A DNA stretch of 36,533 nt from a virus: positions 1 through 36,533 of IMG/VR virus record IMGVR_UViG_3300009285_001314, one strand, 5' to 3'. This document shows, in pieces, positions 3,767-28,890 of this stretch; within the stretch, counting starts at the first letter, position 1; each line of letters opens with the position of its first letter. Below the pieces are notes generated by a model, which was not told where the DNA came from, did no database searches, and worked only from the letters and a program-made list of their open reading frames with translations. The position numbers were made by a program, and so were the translations under genes.

Positions 3767-6528
3767 GTGATCACCGCCGTATTCGCGTTCAGGACGGTAG
3801 CTTGCAATTCAAGAGCGTCTAATCCTGTCTTCTGGATTGAGAACGCCCGCACAACGCCCGTGTAATCCGATCCCCCGACGCCGTCCTCGTCAACCGTGAT
3901 CGTCAATCCAAGCTCCGGTTTTGTCGGGAGCAGCCCGGAATAGCCATAATGTCGCGATTCGTAATCCCGCAGGTGTGTCAATAGAAGCGTCCTGGCCGCG
4001 CTCACAGCGCTTTCGTAAGTCCCGACGCCTATGTCATAGGGAAGTATCCTTTGCGCCCCACCTACGCCATTCAGTGCGCCCACGGAGCCTCGTAGCTTCT
4101 GGTATGTCAGCGGCGCATAAACGAAAAGGGCATTGCCGATATCTGTCACGCTGTCGGTTAACTGGACGGTGACATACTTCTTAGCTCCGGTTATTTTCAG
4201 ATCGTGGATTACCGCCCAATAATAGTCAGCCCCGTCTTTTGGCCCCGGCATGTAATCCCAGATGATACGGACAGCGTTGACATTCCGCATCCGGAATTCT
4301 TCGCAGGTTTCCTCAAGCCATTTCCCGTAAGGGTTTGGTTTCCCTTCAAGCGCGAAACCGAGGTCAACCCATGTCGCGGCGTTCCTGCTTGCTTCATTGG
4401 TCGTGTCGTAATCGTCACAGCCGTAAAAGCGAACTAAGAATGTTTTCGATGAATTCTGATAGGTCTGTGAGGCGTCGATTGAGCGATATGTATTTATGGC
4501 AGCGGTGATCGATCCGAGCGGAATCACCGGCGGAATCGTCCCGGGTCCAAAAACGCAGTCACAGAAATGGACACTGGCAGCCGGGCTATGCGTAAACTCC
4601 GCTTTGAGTACGGTTGTAGGATCGCCGTCGATAATGTAGCCCTTTCCGAAATTCCCGGCGGAGGTACTATCGTCTATCTCGTCCATGTTCCAGGAGCCGC
4701 TATCGTTCTGCATCATAACCCAGCGATCCGGCTTCGCGCCCCCGACGCCAGCATCCGTATGCCAGATGTCGTAAATAATATTAACAGCTTGATCGCCCTC
4801 GTACTGGACTCGCACGCCGCTATAAACATTTTCGATGCTCTTTTCATCATCGATGCGGTGAAGGAAAGGCACGGTGAAAGCGGACGTGTCATTAGCGATC
4901 ACGCGCAACCTGAATTTATCAATGTCGTGCCTATACCAGAATTTAATTTCCTCTTCTAAACTGAGTTCCGTGAGTAAGTCCTGAATGGCGTCGAAAACAT
5001 TTTGCGGCTTCCGCGATGGATCGTAATCATAACGGTTGACGAACATCAGGCCGGTTGAAGAATGCAGATAAAGCGCCATCGAAACGTAACCATCCGATGT
5101 CGCAGATGCGGGTGTTTCACTGACTGTTATTCGTGTAACCGCGCCCGTCCACGCCGATGACACGATAGTATAATAGCCGTCGTTTCCTGTGGAGTCGGAC
5201 ACCGCGACGTATTCCCCGGCGACAAATTCAGTGGGCACATTCTCGGAGATATCGAATCGTTTATTAACGGTGTCGACCGCGTCGATATCGTAAGTTTTGA
5301 ATCCCGCGCCCCCGTAAGCGAGCGGAGCCGTGAGCATCTTTTTTATGATGTCATTCAGCGTTAAAAGATATGTGCCGCCTAATTCGTAATCCTCATCGTA
5401 AACGAAGTAAGTCCCCCGGTATGTATCCCCGGCTTCCGTGGTACCGGCCATGACAAAGCATCCGAGTTTGGGGACGCTCTGGACTTCCTTTTCAATCCGC
5501 ATGATGTCCCACGCGGCGGCATGATTCTTTTCGATCCGCGCCATTCCCGGAGCTATCTGTTTCGCTATCTTTTCATAGACGGCGACGGCTGCGAGATGCG
5601 CGGCTGCCGATGTCGCGAGCTGCCCACGGACGCAATTACGCAAGCGGTATTTCGTGTCCGCTGCGGAGTTGTCATAGCCGTCGTAGTAAATCCATTCGAC
5701 CGCAATCTTGACCCAGCCGCGAGGATTAAAGCCCTCGTTGGAAGTGGACAGGATTATGTTCGGGTTGACAATGCCGCCGTCTACAGTACCGTCCGGGATC
5801 GCTTCGTCAACCGTAATCACGGTTGGACCCGCTCCGGTTGCGCTTGCCACTGTGTATGTCCCGTCATTCCCCGTTGAACCGGATACCTGGAATCTATCAT
5901 CGGCCACGAATTCAGCCGCGACAGCATCGGCAACCGTGAATTCTTTCGTACCTGTGTTCACGCCTGTAATCGCGTAAGTCCCGGCGCCGATATTCACGTC
6001 AAGCGCGTCGGCATTTGAGGACGCATCTTTGATGTAACATTTCGCGCCGTCCGCATCGTCGGGATCAGGCCATAAGGTATCGCCCTCAAATTCACCATAG
6101 CTTGTATTCTCTATCAGCGGCACTTCCGTCAATAATGCGGAGTCCGTTTCAAGTGTCCAGTACGGGCTCCCGTTGGTGTCCGGAATTGTGCAACTTGTCA
6201 GGATTCCTTCCTTGCCCCATACCGTTACCTGAAGCATTCGACCCGTCGGGAAGTCATGCGTTTTCAGCTTTGAGTAAACATAGCCGCGAAACCAGAACGC
6301 GGAATCTCTCTTGAAATTCACCGTCGCCAATTGCTGACAGGGATTCGTCGCAAGCGTTTCATTTTCATAAAGCGACGCGATATCAGCCCGGATTAAAAGC
6401 ACCATCGCGCTCACGGTTTCCATGCTCTGCTCAATGCCCAAAAAAGAGACGGGTAAATTCCCGCTGGCACCTTGCGCGCCGCCCGTGAGGTTGTACTTAG
6501 GATTCGATGCTGTGACTGTCCAAGCCAT
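3763..6528 (-). CDS. Large tail-tip protein (tail-associated, Tal-like position)
   Basis: At 921 residues this is the largest tail-tip protein and lies second after the tape measure gene, where siphoviruses keep their tail-associated hub protein. It carries two copies of a small module centred on STGNDG (in DNA about 5757-5980 and 5075-5300), each with a following ITV-type strand. The C-terminal third (ESRHYGYSGLLPTKPELGLTIT) resembles hub or tip-attachment segments of minor tail proteins. No peptidase or lysozyme motif is evident. It is coupled to its neighbours by TAATG at the start and ATGA at the end. The tail-tip role is confident; the subclass is inferred from position. Confidence 0.65.
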   Translation of the reverse strand: MAWTVTASNPKYNLTGGAQGASGNLPVSFLGIEQSMETVSAMVLLIRADIASLYENETLATNPCQQLATVNFKRDSAFWFRGYVYSKLKTHDFPTGRMLQVTVWGKEGILTSCTIPDTNGSPYWTLETDSALLTEVPLIENTSYGEFEGDTLWPDPDDADGAKCYIKDASSNADALDVNIGAGTYAITGVNTGTKEFTVADAVAAEFVADDRFQVSGSTGNDGTYTVASATGAGPTVITVDEAIPDGTVDGGIVNPNIILSTSNEGFNPRGWVKIAVEWIYYDGYDNSAADTKYRLRNCVRGQLATSAAAHLAAVAVYEKIAKQIAPGMARIEKNHAAAWDIMRIEKEVQSVPKLGCFVMAGTTEAGDTYRGTYFVYDEDYELGGTYLLTLNDIIKKMLTAPLAYGGAGFKTYDIDAVDTVNKRFDISENVPTEFVAGEYVAVSDSTGNDGYYTIVSSAWTGAVTRITVSETPASATSDGYVSMALYLHSSTGLMFVNRYDYDPSRKPQNVFDAIQDLLTELSLEEEIKFWYRHDIDKFRLRVIANDTSAFTVPFLHRIDDEKSIENVYSGVRVQYEGDQAVNIIYDIWHTDAGVGGAKPDRWVMMQNDSGSWNMDEIDDSTSAGNFGKGYIIDGDPTTVLKAEFTHSPAASVHFCDCVFGPGTIPPVIPLGSITAAINTYRSIDASQTYQNSSKTFLVRFYGCDDYDTTNEASRNAATWVDLGFALEGKPNPYGKWLEETCEEFRMRNVNAVRIIWDYMPGPKDGADYYWAVIHDLKITGAKKYVTVQLTDSVTDIGNALFVYAPLTYQKLRGSVGALNGVGGAQRILPYDIGVGTYESAVSAARTLLLTHLRDYESRHYGYSGLLPTKPELGLTITVDEDGVGGSDYTGVVRAFSIQKTGLDALELQATVLNANTAVIT

Positions 6529-15836: not shown

Positions 15837-17959
15837 ATCGGTTCCTCCGTTTCGTCCAGTACCGAAAATGTACAGCGACAATTACAGTCGTGAGACGGGT
15901 CACCCATCATGCCCGGAGCCTGTCCCCTCACACCATCCATCGGTGAAACAAAGTCCTCATCAAAGCTCACGACCATGCCGTCAAGCTCTACGTGGCTGTC
16001 CCTGACGCGCGAGTCGCGGGCAGACAGCCATTCCTTCCGTTCTGCCACGCCTGACTGCCTGTAGCCTTCCAGCGTCGCCTTAGAGGACGCCATGCCGACT
16101 TCCGTCTGTGCGATTGTACGCGCTCGCGCGGGCGTGAGATCATCGAAGTTATCGAGTAACCTCTGCTTGATTTCCATTATGCTTTCGTTCTGCGAAACGC
16201 CCTCGTTGATAATCCTCTGCATGCGGTCGGCGGTTGTCTGGTTAATTAATTCCGATCTGTCCGCGAGAGTTTCCGCGATCCACTTCTGGATCGCCGGGCG
16301 ATTAATGTCAAACACGATGCCCTTTGCTTTGAGTTCCGCGAGCGCCGCCTGCCCAAAAGTAACCATCAGCGAAGACGTCAAACTGTGGACGGCCTCGACG
16401 TATGCCTCGTCCTGATTCGTGTTCTGGAAAAGCCTGTCAACGGTCATCGCGTGCATCTCGCGATTGTCGGCAGCGGACATCATGCCTTCCAGTTTGTCGA
16501 AGACTGTATTTAATTGTTCACGCGCAAACGTTTTAAAAGCCCGTTCAAATTTCGTCTCATAGGGAAGCCGCATTTTGTTCTTGCGGTTGTATGCGGCGGC
16601 GCGCGCAACCTCTGTTTTATATCTGGATTTCGGATGAATCGGGAAAAGCGACAATACGGGTTCGCTGTCTTCGCGCTTCTCATAACCGGATTTACCAAAG
16701 ACCGCGCCTGTATCGGCAGTGACGTCCGTACCCAACGGCACAAGATTGAACGGCACAAGGATAACGTCACCTTCCGGCACCGTATCGAATCCACTCTTGA
16801 CGCGCTTCTCGTTTTCAGTGAGCCATGAAGCCATAGCCAGGCGCGTAAACAGTGCCGTCGCGTCTTCCTGCATTACATCGATATGCCCGTATTCCAGGCC
16901 GATTTCAATGCCGGGTTTCTGGCTGGCTACTTTATTCGTGAGCGCATCGGCGAATGCCTGCAATGGCGGTATTACGGTTTCAAGATATAAGCCCTTACGC
17001 GCCTCGTTGACGTTGTTATATGTGGACGCCGCCGGATCTCCGATTAGCTTTGAATCGACACCCATGACAGCGCAGATATCCCGCATCATGTCCTGCTTAC
17101 CGAGCAGCCAGTCCATGTCTTTAGCGGTCTGCGACATCTCTTTTGCTTCGATGGATTCACCGGGTACGAACATGGGACGTCCGGCATTTTTGGCACCGGC
17201 GTATTGCGCCTGATAATCGTCGTGTAGTTCCTTTTTTAGAGTCGGTTTAAGACTTAGAAGCCCCTTAACAAAAAAGATAATCGCCGGGATACCGCCACGT
17301 TGCAGGATGTTCCGATTCCAACTGATAGCGTTCGTGTGCGCTTCGATGACCTCGGCAGCGGCGGCTATTGGAGAGAATGCGCCGGTCATGCTTTGCGGGT
17401 CGGGGTAGCGCGTATAAACAATTTCTTCCGCCGGGATGATAATGCCTGTCGGACCATATTCGTACCGAGTGATCGCGCCGAAGTCATCGGTAATGATGCG
17501 GACCTTATCCGGGAGCAGTAGAACCATTTCGGGCGCAGACTTAAATTCCAGTCCGTTCAATCCCACGCGTGTACCGAAACCACGGAGTTGTGCGAATGCA
17601 CATCCCGCGAGATTCATGTGCAGGCACCACATCTCGATAAATGACCGCATCGTTTCCGTCTGCGAAGGCGACGTTATCAGGCGTTGAATTCCCGCTAAAT
17701 CCTTCGGTATTTTGTCATCCGGAATGATTTCGCCGTCGCGTTTGATCACGAACTTGACGGACTTCGAGGCGGTGCAAATCTCGCGCAAGCAGGCATAAAC
17801 AACGGGATTTCGCTTGTAACCGTACTTCACATAGTCCGCAAAACGCCACGATGAAGATGTGCCTGTACCGATGCCGTCGGGGAAGTTATCGAACGTGATA
17901 GCAATCCGCTTCTCGGGAGGATTGAGAAGGCGATGGACGAACTGCCCGAAAATGTTCAC
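15833..17959 (-). CDS. Portal protein fused to a MuF-type minor head protein
   Basis: A single frame encodes an HK97-type portal (about residues 1-450; YGYKRNPVVYACLREIC, then EIVYTRYPDPQSM and WNRNILQRGGIPAI) and then a helical region joined to a MuF-like domain (final ~100 residues: ARTIAQTEVGMASS, KEWLSARDSRVRDSH, HDCNCRCTF). Usually the portal is ~400-450 residues and the MuF protein is a separate gene. No stop or frameshift separates them. The start is uncertain: GTG at 17959 gives a normal portal N-terminus (VNIFGQFVHRLL), whereas TTG at 18040 would add 27 residues; neither has a clear ribosome binding site. The portal forms the DNA entry vertex. Confidence 0.8.
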   Translation of the reverse strand: MNIFGQFVHRLLNPPEKRIAITFDNFPDGIGTGTSSSWRFADYVKYGYKRNPVVYACLREICTASKSVKFVIKRDGEIIPDDKIPKDLAGIQRLITSPSQTETMRSFIEMWCLHMNLAGCAFAQLRGFGTRVGLNGLEFKSAPEMVLLLPDKVRIITDDFGAITRYEYGPTGIIIPAEEIVYTRYPDPQSMTGAFSPIAAAAEVIEAHTNAISWNRNILQRGGIPAIIFFVKGLLSLKPTLKKELHDDYQAQYAGAKNAGRPMFVPGESIEAKEMSQTAKDMDWLLGKQDMMRDICAVMGVDSKLIGDPAASTYNNVNEARKGLYLETVIPPLQAFADALTNKVASQKPGIEIGLEYGHIDVMQEDATALFTRLAMASWLTENEKRVKSGFDTVPEGDVILVPFNLVPLGTDVTADTGAVFGKSGYEKREDSEPVLSLFPIHPKSRYKTEVARAAAYNRKNKMRLPYETKFERAFKTFAREQLNTVFDKLEGMMSAADNREMHAMTVDRLFQNTNQDEAYVEAVHSLTSSLMVTFGQAALAELKAKGIVFDINRPAIQKWIAETLADRSELINQTTADRMQRIINEGVSQNESIMEIKQRLLDNFDDLTPARARTIAQTEVGMASSKATLEGYRQSGVAERKEWLSARDSRVRDSHVELDGMVVSFDEDFVSPMDGVRGQAPGMMGDPSHDCNCRCTFSVLDETEEPI

Positions 17960-23892: not shown

Positions 23893-23911
23893 ACCTTCAG
23901 AGACTGCGATA

Positions 23912-23979
23912 AGAAAAAAAGACCGGGAGACTGCAAGTATTAAGCCCCAAGACGAAAGCCTTGGTTCGCAGTCTCCCGG
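23912..23979 (-). terminator. Strong intrinsic terminator of the replication operon
   Basis: On the minus strand CCGGGAGACTGC (from 23979) pairs perfectly over 12 bp with GCAGTCTCCCGG (ending 23923), with a smaller inner hairpin CCAAG/CTTGG, then TCTTTTTTTC. It closes the operon that ends at 24100 and insulates it from HNH gene 2 and the late block. The 235-base stretch 23865-24099 holds this terminator and the HNH promoter but no convincing gene. Confidence 0.9.
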
Positions 23980-24099
23980 CTAATCTGATAACCCGTCGCC
24001 TAATCGTCTGACCAGTCAAGCTGGGATGATTCTGAACGCCCCGAAGGGCACTCGCTTGGTTTTCAGCTAAGGGATACATTCTGGTCAAACTTTCACCGC

Positions 24100-26041: not shown

Positions 26042-27023
26042 CGCAATCGCCTCCCTGCAGACCGGTTAAAACCGGGTCGGGTTCCGCGGTCGACATGCCC
26101 TGACGTCCCTGTTCAAGCCGTTCCTTCCGGTCGACGTCCTCCGAAATGACCAGTTCGTCGACATGCCGGATGAACATCTCCCATTTGTGGCCGGCTACCC
26201 ATTTAACCTGAAATTCGTCGCAGTCCGCGGGATCGAGTCCGATGAAGTAATCCATCGCATTCTTTACCTGGGTTTCTGTAAGTCCCCGCTTTAAACACGT
26301 CCGGACGTTAGGGAGAGCATGAGCAAAGGGAATCGACGGCTTAAAACCCCACCGCTTAAAATGGGTAAGAACGTAATGCCCTTGACACCTTTCAGCGGGA
26401 TCATCGGATTTAATCCAATCCTCGGCAGTCCGTCTTTTAGTTTTTTTTTCAGGGCTGTCCGATGCTTTATCGGACGAATCTTTCCTAAGATTCTTCTTAG
26501 GAGACGGAGGAGGAGGAGGAGGAGGAGGAGGAGCGGTGCTTGTAGCGGACGTTTTTAGCGTTTTAGCAGTGCTTGTAGCTACGCTTGAAGCGGTGCTTGT
26601 AGCGGATTTTATGACTGAAATCCTTTCCTGCAGGTATTTTTCACCTTCGAGGGATGTCATCATACCGCGGTTTATTTTGGCCGCGACGTTCCCTTTGATC
26701 GCTCGGATTTTCCTTTCCGGAGCCGCTACGACGTAAGCCTGGTGAAACTCCCACTCATGGACTTCATACTGACCGTCTATTTCGTCCACAAGCCGCACTT
26801 CAAGCAGTGCTTGTAGAAAAGTCCCGGGATCACCTTTCCATCCGGCGGCAATGTCCACGTCGAGCGGGTCCATGCCGTTCATTTTGCCGGTCGGATGATT
26901 TATGGCGATGAAGCACCAAAACCGGATCAAACACCGGTACGCGGGTTCGCCCAATAGTCGGTACAATTTTTCAATTTTTGGGTGGTCGGGGTTGTCGCAA
27001 GCGATTCTGATATCTGTGTTCAT
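26031..27023 (-). CDS. Replication initiator (lambda O-like architecture)
   Basis: A 330-residue protein. Residues 1 to about 110 form a winged-helix-like DNA-binding region (KIEKLYRLLGEPAYRCLIRF; VHEWEFHQAY). A low-complexity linker has three ATSTA repeats and nine prolines (165-173). The C-terminal domain (about 195-300) is a likely helicase-contact module. The start at 27023 is chosen because AAGGA lies seven bases before it; a longer frame to 27062 runs through the leader hairpins. The linker DNA contains iteron-like repeats, as lambda O contains its origin. It lies directly before the helicase gene. The family name is inferred from architecture and context. Confidence 0.7.
   Translation of the reverse strand: MNTDIRIACDNPDHPKIEKLYRLLGEPAYRCLIRFWCFIAINHPTGKMNGMDPLDVDIAAGWKGDPGTFLQALLEVRLVDEIDGQYEVHEWEFHQAYVVAAPERKIRAIKGNVAAKINRGMMTSLEGEKYLQERISVIKSATSTASSVATSTAKTLKTSATSTAPPPPPPPPPSPKKNLRKDSSDKASDSPEKKTKRRTAEDWIKSDDPAERCQGHYVLTHFKRWGFKPSIPFAHALPNVRTCLKRGLTETQVKNAMDYFIGLDPADCDEFQVKWVAGHKWEMFIRHVDELVISEDVDRKERLEQGRQGMSTAEPDPVLTGLQGGDCDEF
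26457..26501. repeat. Two adjacent inverted repeats beside an A/T tract, possible origin element
   Basis: GTCCGAT/ATCGGAC (26457-26463 and 26469-26475) and CCTAAGA/TCTTAGG (26484-26490 and 26495-26501) lie side by side inside the initiator gene. A run of nine A/T pairs lies just to the left (26441-26449) and the iteron-like repeats begin 31 bases to the right. Together they look like an origin, though both dyads are short. Confidence 0.5.
26532..26603. repeat. Iteron-like repeats AGCRGTGCTTGTAGC inside the initiator gene
   Basis: Three 15-bp copies at 26532-26546, 26565-26579 and 26589-26603 differ at one position (G or A). A fourth, 14-base match lies at 26803-26816, and a half copy GCTTGAAGC at 26583-26591. 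They encode the ATSTA peptide repeats of the linker. Iterons inside the initiator gene are known from lambda-type origins. Peptide repetition alone is the rival explanation, but the fourth copy lies in a different protein segment. Confidence 0.6.
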
Positions 27024-27025
27024 AA

Positions 27026-27142
27026 GCTGGTCCTTCAGGGGAGTCCGGCTAAGGACCAGCAAAGGCCGGACTCCCCCAGAAACGAAAAACGCGCTTACCC
27101 GGTCAAGGATGCGCGTCTTGTAATTGTTCTCCCTTGACCGGG
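27026..27142 (-). promoter_or_regulatory. Structured leader of the replication operon with two interleaved hairpin pairs
   Basis: Four perfect inverted repeats are arranged as two A-B-A'-B' sets in the minus-strand leader. Set 1: an 11-bp stem (27142-27132 with 27108-27098) overlaps a 6-bp GC stem (27116-27111 with 27094-27089, extendable by A-U/G-U pairs) followed by TTTTTCGTTT. Set 2: a 12-bp stem (27076-27065 with 27049-27038) overlaps a 10-bp stem (27060-27051 with 27035-27026). The last arm contains AAGGA, the initiator's ribosome binding site. Members of each set cannot easily form together, which suggests alternative terminator/antiterminator and closed/open translation states. Confidence 0.7.
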
Positions 27143-27152
27143 GTACTCAAGA

Positions 27153-27181
27153 ATCTTAAACTAATTTTATCCGCCTGTCAA
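27153..27181 (-). promoter_or_regulatory. Promoter for the replication operon
   Basis: TTGACA (27181-27176), 17 bases, TAAGAT (27158-27153) on the minus strand, overlapping the 3' end of HNH gene 3. The predicted start near 27146 is just before the first leader stem, so the whole structured leader (about 120 bases) would be transcribed. TTGACAGGCGG resembles the operator-like TTGACAAANGG at the switch. Confidence 0.6.
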
Positions 27182-27674
27182 GATTTTTTGCCTTGTTGTA
27201 TTGTTTCCGCCTTCCGAAATTTAATCTATCTCGATTTTTCAGCCAATATCGATAGCTGCCTTGCCTGCTTTTCTCAGGATGTGATGCGTGGTATTCCTTT
27301 TGATATTGGCATTTTCTTAATTTATCGGCTTCTATGCTGTTGTTTTCGGTGCAGATACCATAATATTTATATATATATTTAATAAGCAGTTCACTATGGC
27401 TGGTCACCGCTCGTTTGTTTATTATTGTGTGAACTTGAGAATGGCAGGAAGCGCATAATATATGGCATTTTTCTATTTCCCTAAGAATCGCCCCTATTGA
27501 ACTACCCGCCATGCTCGGAGGATTCATTGTTTTTCTTTCGGGTTCAATATGATGGAAAACTAAATTATTCATTGATCCGCAAACCCGGCAACCATAATGT
27601 TCTTTATATTTCTTAATGAACAATTGATGTTTCCACAATATATCGGTTTTAGAATGTTGATTATTTCTAGTCAT
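27156..27674 (-). CDS. HNH endonuclease (HNH gene 3)
   Basis: A 172-residue nuclease from the ATG at 27674 (MTRNNQHSKTDILWK). Zinc cysteines in GCRVCGS and LCASCHS, an FHHIEPER pair and CHSQVH form the HNH site in the first 110 residues. The C-terminal tail is basic and Tyr/Arg-rich (QKEYHASHPEKSRQG; LKNRDRLNFGRRKQ), likely DNA-contacting. The DNA is A/T-rich compared with the replication genes. The chosen ATG lies seven bases after a perfect -10 box and has no ribosome binding site; an upstream TTG at 27710 is part of the -35 box. Probably a mobile homing gene between switch and replication operon. Confidence 0.85.
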   Translation of the reverse strand: MTRNNQHSKTDILWKHQLFIKKYKEHYGCRVCGSMNNLVFHHIEPERKTMNPPSMAGSSIGAILREIEKCHILCASCHSQVHTIINKRAVTSHSELLIKYIYKYYGICTENNSIEADKLRKCQYQKEYHASHPEKSRQGSYRYWLKNRDRLNFGRRKQYNKAKNLDRRIKLV

Positions 27675-27681
27675 GGGGTAA

Positions 27682-27710
27682 ATTATAGCTTGATAAATAT
27701 TTATTGTCAA
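27682..27710 (-). promoter_or_regulatory. Perfect sigma-70 consensus promoter for HNH gene 3
   Basis: TTGACA (27710-27705), exactly 17 bases, TATAAT (27687-27682), then seven bases to the ATG at 27674. Both hexamers match consensus fully. The spacing predicts a transcript starting at or next to the A of the start codon. Confidence 0.85.
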
Positions 27711-27722
27711 TCGTTTATTATT

Positions 27723-27760
27723 AAAAAAAGTACCCCGGCCAACTTTCCCGCTGACCGGGG
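27723..27760 (-). terminator. Intrinsic terminator just downstream of the leftward switch promoter
   Basis: In the minus-strand RNA CCCCGGTCA pairs with TGGCCGGGG (9 bp with one G-U), loop of 10, then TAC and seven T residues (27729-27723). It lies about 45 bases after the predicted start of the leftward promoter at 27840-27812 and before the HNH gene 3 promoter. Confidence 0.85.
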
Positions 27761-27805
27761 CTTCTCGTAGGAGGATTGAGAATGAGATACTGCAACTTAC
27801 TCACA
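27723..27805 (-). ncRNA. Candidate small RNA (promoter-terminator unit without a convincing gene)
   Basis: Transcription from the perfect leftward promoter would begin near 27805 and stop at the T-run near 27723, giving an RNA of about 80 bases. It has no ATG; only a GTG-initiated 27-codon frame without a ribosome binding site is present. An unpaired segment CTCAATCCTCC could pair with the leader of the gene at 28690. This is inferred; it may instead be an attenuated leader of an ancestral replication operon interrupted by HNH gene 3. Confidence 0.5.
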
Positions 27806-27811
27806 CTCAGG

Positions 27812-27840
27812 ATTATAACCAGCGATTTCCCGTTTGTCAA
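27812..27840 (-). promoter_or_regulatory. Leftward switch promoter, perfect consensus
   Basis: TTGACA (27840-27835), 17 bases, TATAAT (27817-27812) on the minus strand. The -35 box forms one arm of the inverted repeat shared with the repressor promoter. Confidence 0.85.
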
Positions 27841-27860
27841 ATTTTTCTATTGACAAATGG
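27830..27860. promoter_or_regulatory. Operator-like inverted repeat over two divergent -35 boxes
   Basis: CCGTTTGTCAA and TTGACAAATGG are inverted copies (10 of 11) separated by nine bases. Each arm contains the -35 box of an outward-facing promoter. A third copy, TTGACAAAGGG, overlaps the -35 box of the early promoter at 28093. One protein bound here, most simply the adjacent repressor, could control all three promoters. Confidence 0.7.
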
Positions 27861-27878
27861 TAGCCCTTATGTTAATTT
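27850..27878 (+). promoter_or_regulatory. Repressor promoter, leaderless geometry
   Basis: TTGACA (27850-27855), 17 bases, TAATTT (27873-27878; weak match), then six bases to the ATG at 27885. No ribosome binding site is present. A repressor message starting at its own ATG is known from lambda cI transcribed from PRM. Confidence 0.6.
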
Positions 27879-27884
27879 ATTTTC

Positions 27885-28091
27885 ATGGTTAAGAAACTTT
27901 ATACCCTCAGAATCGAAAAAATCAAGCGGCTGATGAAGGCTTACGAAATCAGCAATAGCGCGCTGATAGCGGAGTCTACGCTATCCCGTCGGACGGTCGA
28001 GGAAGTCCTCGCGGGTACGCGAAACGCGAATCCAGCCACTTTAAAGCTGATGGAAATTTCCATAAAAAATTTACGAAAAGGGATTATTTAG
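27885..28091 (+). CDS. Small Cro/CI-like HTH repressor
   Basis: A 68-residue basic protein about the size of lambda Cro. The helix-turn-helix lies at about residues 15-45 (MKAYEISNSALIAESTLSRR followed by TVEEVLAGTRNANPATL), of the XRE/Cro-CI type in which an A/S-L-S-R turn contacts DNA. No dimerisation or cleavage domain follows. It lies between two promoters that carry the operator-like sequence, so it probably binds both and sets the switch between leftward and rightward transcription. Whether it acts as Cro or as the maintenance repressor cannot be told from sequence. Confidence 0.75.
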   Translation: MVKKLYTLRIEKIKRLMKAYEISNSALIAESTLSRRTVEEVLAGTRNANPATLKLMEISIKNLRKGII

Positions 28092-28092
28092 C

Positions 28093-28121
28093 TTGACAAA
28101 GGGTACACCATCTGTTACGCT
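28093..28121 (+). promoter_or_regulatory. Rightward early promoter
   Basis: TTGACA (28093-28098), 17 bases, TACGCT (28116-28121), preceded by TGT, so an extended -10 element may compensate for the weak hexamer. It begins two bases after the repressor stop, and its -35 region TTGACAAAGGG matches both arms of the operator-like repeat. It would drive the long plus-strand operon. Confidence 0.65.
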
Positions 28122-28626: not shown

Positions 28627-28640
28627 GCCAACACTACACT

Positions 28641-28669
28641 CCCCCCTGACCCGTCGCCGGGCAGGGGGG
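28641..28669. other. GC-rich perfect hairpin between early genes
   Basis: CCCCCCTG (28641-28648) pairs perfectly with CAGGGGGG (28662-28669), with an inner CCCG/CGGG stem. No T-run follows on either strand, so it is not an intrinsic terminator. It ends next to the ribosome binding region of the next gene and may protect, process or modulate the message. Confidence 0.75.
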
Positions 28670-28689
28670 ATTGAGGAGCGTGACACACG

Positions 28690-28890
28690 ATGAAAATGTG
28701 TAACACATGTACTGAGAATGGGAGAGAGGATAAGGGAAAGTGTGCGATCCATGATGTCCAAGTTCAGGATATCAGCGAGTCATTCAGCGGGGAATGCAAA
28801 AGCTATGCCGACAAGTGCGTTGGTTGTCCCCATTTCGAGACTGTCGGCACTGATGCGGAGGGATGCCGGAAACCCGCTTGCGTAAAGTGA
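28690..28890 (+). CDS. Cysteine-rich small protein
   Basis: A 66-residue protein (MKMCNTCTENGREDKGKC) with nine cysteines in CxxC-type pairs (CNTC, CVGCPHF) and a final CRKPACVK. GAGGAGCGTGACACACG precedes the ATG. Zinc binding is likely; the partner is unknown. Confidence 0.65.
   Translation: MKMCNTCTENGREDKGKCAIHDVQVQDISESFSGECKSYADKCVGCPHFETVGTDAEGCRKPACVK

Follow-up and report, generated by a model that had tools for sequence, protein, structure and literature searches.

The switch region and its features

The stretch of viral DNA analysed, called here the window, is the 36,533-nt IMG/VR record IMGVR_UViG_3300009285_001314. A search of IMG/VR with the 68-aa HTH protein encoded next to the unit of interest returned one relative, IMGVR_UViG_3300031949_000126 (hereafter L002), whose HTH protein is 72% identical. 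The features on which the analysis turns are the following.

27885..28091, plus strand: gene of the 68-aa HTH protein, repressor-like, with sub-threshold matches to Pfam HTH_26 and to PHROG 9103 (transcriptional repressor)
27850..27878, plus strand: P_HTH, divergent promoter of the HTH gene, read from the sequence, with an L002 counterpart at 4966-4994
28093..28121, plus strand: PR, rightward early promoter, with an operator-like spacer motif shared with P_HTH
27840..27812, minus strand: P1, promoter of the predicted small RNA, TTGACA-17-TATAAT, matching the sigma-70 hexamers at 12/12 positions
27723..27805, minus strand: predicted small RNA of ~80 nt, starting at about 27805 and ending in a T run, deduced from the promoter and terminator positions, the fold and conservation in L002
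27763..27781, minus strand: hairpin 1 of this RNA, a UCUC/GAGA stem with a AAUCCUCCUAC loop (UCCUCCU, anti-Shine-Dalgarno-like), from the RNAalifold consensus of the window and L002
27723..27761, minus strand: intrinsic terminator, stem and T run, from the sequence and RNAalifold
27156..27674, minus strand: HNH endonuclease gene, an insertion that separates the small-RNA terminator from P2 and that L002 lacks
27181..27153, minus strand: P2, separate promoter of the replication operon, TTGACA-17-TAAGAT, with the same hexamers and spacing in L002

A preliminary description of this DNA had reported a perfect leftward promoter with a 17-base spacer, a terminator about 45 bases further on and a resulting RNA of ~80 bases. 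P1 is indeed exact at 27840..27812 of the minus strand, the terminator begins 44 bases past the predicted start, and the RNA is predicted to run from 27805 to 27723. The terminator had been given seven T residues and a 9-bp stem; the T7 run is there (27729..27723, minus strand, preceded by AC), but the stem, GCCCCGGTCAGC-GGGAAA-GTTGGCCGGGGT at 27761..27732 of the minus strand, has 12 pairs, 3 of them G-U, around a 6-nt loop. The window contains three promoter sites with at most one mismatch, where 0.14 would be expected; two of them are perfect. The HNH gene has its own promoter, with a 12/12 match, at 27710..27682 (minus strand). When a unit is defined as a promoter with at most two mismatches and a terminator within 130 bases of it, exactly one is found in the window and none in 200 composition-matched order-2 Markov genomes; by the same definition L002 likewise has exactly one.

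Conservation of the unit in a relative with other replication genes

The unit region is 72% identical in DNA between the window and L002 over 165 bases. L002 keeps the P1 spacing (its counterpart of P1, TTGACA-17-TAGAAT, lies at 4956..4928), hairpin 1 and the terminator, whose stem is at 4877..4848; its counterpart of the RNA would span 4839-4921. The replication initiators of the two phages are unrelated in sequence, their DnaB proteins share 22% identity, and in L002 no HNH gene stands between the switch and the replication genes. The preliminary description had proposed to look for the unit in a relative without that gene, and L002 carries it. On this comparison of sequences, the promoter–terminator unit is an autonomous cassette travelling with the HTH/switch module, independently of the HNH and replication genes. 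Further relatives were found neither in phage records nor in plasmids or GTDB genomes, the loci L004 and L008-L015 proved to be chance matches, and searches started from the two replication proteins yielded no related loci.

In L002, P2 (TTGACA-17-TAAGAT, 4838..4810) lies directly past the T run of the terminator and ahead of the replication genes, and in the window it sits downstream of the HNH gene. It had been suggested that the unit might be an attenuated leader that the HNH gene (HNH gene 3) had separated from its operon. This explanation fails, because L002, which has no HNH gene, keeps the terminator and a separate P2, and the window also has a P2.

Several further observations concern this side of the switch. 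P2 is followed by a leader whose layout is common to both phages, at 4744-4803 (minus strand) in L002 and in the window at:

27085..27147, minus strand: P2 leader, in which overlapping hairpins of an attenuator- or pseudoknot-like kind precede T5, of the same topology and different sequence in L002

The two sequences are unrelated. In each, an upstream arm can pair with the loop of a terminator hairpin that has T5 behind it, which would make the leader an attenuator or an H-type pseudoknot. Arms of at least 12 are expected 0.0025 times per genome; that of L002 is 8. An inverted, near-perfect similarity of 14 nt links the small-RNA terminator (27729-27761) and the start of the P2 leader (27096-27147), which flank the HNH gene; it could serve as a pairing or be left over from the insertion of the HNH gene. 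Leaderless mRNAs are predicted for the HTH gene (27885, plus strand; L002 5001, plus strand) and the HNH gene (27674, minus strand), with the ATG ~7 bases past the -10 box. Iteron-like repeats occur inside the replication initiator genes, at 4255-4320 in L002 (CGGTGNACC type) and at 26530-26615 in the window (GCGGTGCTTGTAGC), and are probable origins inside the initiator gene, as in lambda. Downstream of dnaB, between small genes of the window, a strong 13-bp hairpin followed by T7 (23905-23985, minus strand) is a probable terminator.

Fold, strand and coding capacity of the predicted RNA

The predicted small RNA folds better than nearly all of its shuffled versions (z = -3.0). With the alignment as its sole input, RNAalifold returns for both phages a 4-bp hairpin with the UCCUCCU loop and a 12-bp terminator hairpin. 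TTGCAG, UCUCA, UCCUCCU and GAGAAGCCCCGGUC are common to the two RNAs, and identity is distributed unevenly: the 5' part matches at 13/29 positions, the terminator stem at 22/24 and the terminator loop at 2/6. The two substitutions in that stem exchange A-U for G-U and G-U for A-U. Both retain pairing solely in the minus-strand RNA, since in a plus-strand RNA the G-U would be a C-A mismatch, so that selection seems to act on the minus-strand RNA, as far as two sequences compared can indicate it. This pair of sequences (n=2) contains no two-sided covariation, and no Rfam family scores above its gathering threshold for the small RNA.

The view that the unit holds no credible gene is borne out, as no short reading frame of either strand across the RNA region is conserved between the window and L002. 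A tiny plus-strand ORF at 27782 with a Shine-Dalgarno sequence (MRYCNLL...) and a TTG-started frame inside the RNA were considered, and both frames are lost in L002. An own promoter, an own intrinsic terminator, the lack of an ORF and conservation are thus all found together, as in the general kind of self-terminating phage small RNA.

Divergent promoters and regulation

In the window and in L002 alike, nine bases separate the -35 box of P1 from that of P_HTH, so the polymerase footprints at the two promoters should overlap. The PR spacer is identical at 17/17 bases in the two phages, and the spacers of P_HTH and PR share an operator-like motif at 12/17 positions (shuffle p about 0.0002). In P1 the motif reaches 9/17 in the window (p 0.014) and is absent in L002. 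With a weak operator-like motif or none, P1 may therefore stay active under HTH-protein binding, and the small RNA may belong to the lysogenic state, with P1 perhaps active while the HTH protein is bound.

Search for targets

The preliminary description had named a specific target, the sequence upstream of the early gene at 28690, through pairing of CTCAATCCTCC with GGGGGATTGAG with one G-U. The complementarity itself stands and extends to 14 nt with 3 G-U; it is in essence that of an anti-Shine-Dalgarno sequence with a purine-rich stretch. The specific target does not stand. The pairing site, at 28664, lies inside the hairpin of the following element:

28637..28689, plus strand: intercistronic hairpin and Shine-Dalgarno element, the proposed target, occluded (fold -32.2 kcal/mol, z -4.9)

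In joint folding with the 28690 leader, 33/100 shuffled RNAs do equally well or better, and neither the gene nor its pairing with the small RNA is conserved in L002. Hairpin and Shine-Dalgarno elements also precede early genes of L002 (5505-5550, 5660-5702, 6064-6130), so that the element is a general leader rather than a made-to-measure target. What remains of the candidate phage small RNA as it was put forward is an independent, conserved cassette; the named target and the P4-like immunity are not supported.

The early-gene leader elements consist of a CCCC/GGGG hairpin (2/3 in L002) and GGGGGATT(CT)GAG, then GGAGCGTGACAC-ATG, and resemble start-associated sequences. L002 also encodes, at 5860-6050, a small early protein with in-frame AxAWKVYEEAT repeats.

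Two further matches were rejected. A longer match, of 14 nt with 1 G-U at 17915-17928, sits across from a left-facing gene, on the other strand, and probably arose by chance. In the window, 14-15 nt of the terminator's 3' arm, with 1-2 G-U, are complementary to the P2 leader at its 5' arm (27147..27134), a contiguous match stronger than that at 28664, but 30/100 shuffled RNAs fold with that leader equally well or better, the matching arm is part of the RNA's own terminator stem, and L002 has no counterpart of the pairing. None of the targets tested gave an interaction energy clearly better than shuffles, the best being the L002 6127 leader (8/100); raw duplex energies, with their high background, were left out of the assessment.

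Comparison with known phage RNAs

The OOP RNA of lambda is a 77-nt self-terminating RNA (pO-oop-tO), and part of oop and pO is common to lambdoid phages (PMC3349717). The RNA predicted here resembles it as a short self-terminating RNA with its own promoter, lying in the early/immunity region beside the replication genes. However, OOP is antisense to the end of cII, which it overlaps, whereas the window RNA overlaps no gene (none is encoded on the plus strand across 27723-27805), lies divergent to the HTH gene and has no Rfam match. The c4 RNA of P1/P7 is an antisense RNA of phages; it pairs close to a ribosome-binding site, and its complementary sequences probably lie in loops (PMC12197685). 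A possible likeness is the conserved UCCUCCU loop, which may pair with a ribosome-binding site, no specific target having done better than shuffles; the difference is that neither an antirepressor target nor a conserved target pairing was found for the window RNA.

The CI RNA of satellite P4 is processed from a primary untranslated transcript, with premature termination via seqA/seqC (PMC4825925), and shares with the window RNA an origin in an immunity region. Unlike it, the window RNA has its own promoter and terminator, which would make processing from a longer transcript unnecessary, and no conserved complementary leader: leader complementarity amounts to 14-15 nt in the window and is missing in L002, and the joint folds are no better than those of shuffles. 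The suggested P4-like RNA immunity is accordingly not supported, none of its tested defining features having been found. In Gifsy-1 IsrK, a prophage promoter and a leaky terminator together give two isoforms, one short and one long (PMC4825925). A promoter–terminator pair in a (pro)phage yielding a short RNA is also what is predicted here, although the window unit is followed by the separate P2 promoter. By the tests made, the small RNA does not belong with OOP or P4 CI, and probably not with c4.

Proposed function and alternatives

The sequence of the unit, its rarity, its conservation, its strand-specific pairing and its independence from the HNH and replication genes are established here, and from them the transcription of the small RNA, its action in trans and its target class can be proposed. 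Very probably the cassette is a genuine small-RNA gene belonging to the switch module, with an action broadly like that of lambda OOP or P1 c4. P1 would fire to the left, away from the divergent, repressor-like HTH gene, and its transcript would end at its own terminator after ~80 nt. The RNA would fold into a small hairpin displaying the UCCUCCU loop, and then the terminator hairpin with its U tail. Its most likely action would be antisense, with the C-rich, anti-Shine-Dalgarno-like loop pairing with the ribosome-binding site of a single phage or host mRNA, or of a few, and so blocking translation. The terminator would also keep strong P1 transcription from entering P2 and the replication operon. 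Taken as a whole, an autonomous small-RNA gene of the switch module, antisense through its loop and with a terminator shielding P2, is on balance the probable reading.

The main rival, considered rather unlikely, is a leaky leader of the IsrK type. P1 would then be a lytic, early-left promoter whose transcripts mostly stop at the terminator, with read-through or antitermination reaching the leftward genes and the short RNA as one isoform. P1 does point toward the replication and structural genes, only P2 lies between the terminator and the replication genes in L002, and Gifsy-1 IsrK offers a precedent for a prophage promoter–terminator pair with read-through (PMC4825925). Against this stands P2, which in either phage gives the replication operon a promoter of its own beyond the terminator. 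That terminator is strong, with a conserved stem, none of the proteins scanned was recognised as an antiterminator, and the replication genes have been exchanged while the unit is unchanged.

It is less probable still that the RNA is a by-product of a P1 that acts in cis on the HTH promoter, by competition or supercoiling, with a terminator that merely insulates P2. The nine-base spacing of the -35 boxes in both phages fits this proposal, which does not account for the TTGCAG block or for the conservation of hairpin 1 and its loop, UCCUCCU. Least credible is RNA immunity of the P4 CI or pT181 type, in which the small RNA would pair with the start of the P2 leader, favour its terminator and shut off the replication operon: the window does offer the 14-15 nt of complementarity and a leader with overlapping alternative hairpins ending in T5, with an arm of at least 12 at 0.0025 expected per genome, but the arm concerned is already taken up by the 12-bp stem of the RNA itself, shuffled RNAs fold jointly as well, and L002 has no equivalent pairing despite the same leader topology.

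Significance

Switch-region phage small RNAs such as OOP, c4, CI and sar have been found in cultured model phages. The kind of RNA described here is thus already known, and the cassette is carried by two genomes. That the cassette would represent a new RNA family in a portable HTH/small-RNA switch, in which immunity is set by the RNA and its anti-Shine-Dalgarno loop, in place of the HTH protein or alongside it, possibly through the attenuator-like leader of the replication operon, is quite improbable. The cassette stays with the HTH gene while the surrounding replication genes are exchanged and, being recognisable from sequence alone, provides a testable example of such a small RNA in an uncultivated lineage.
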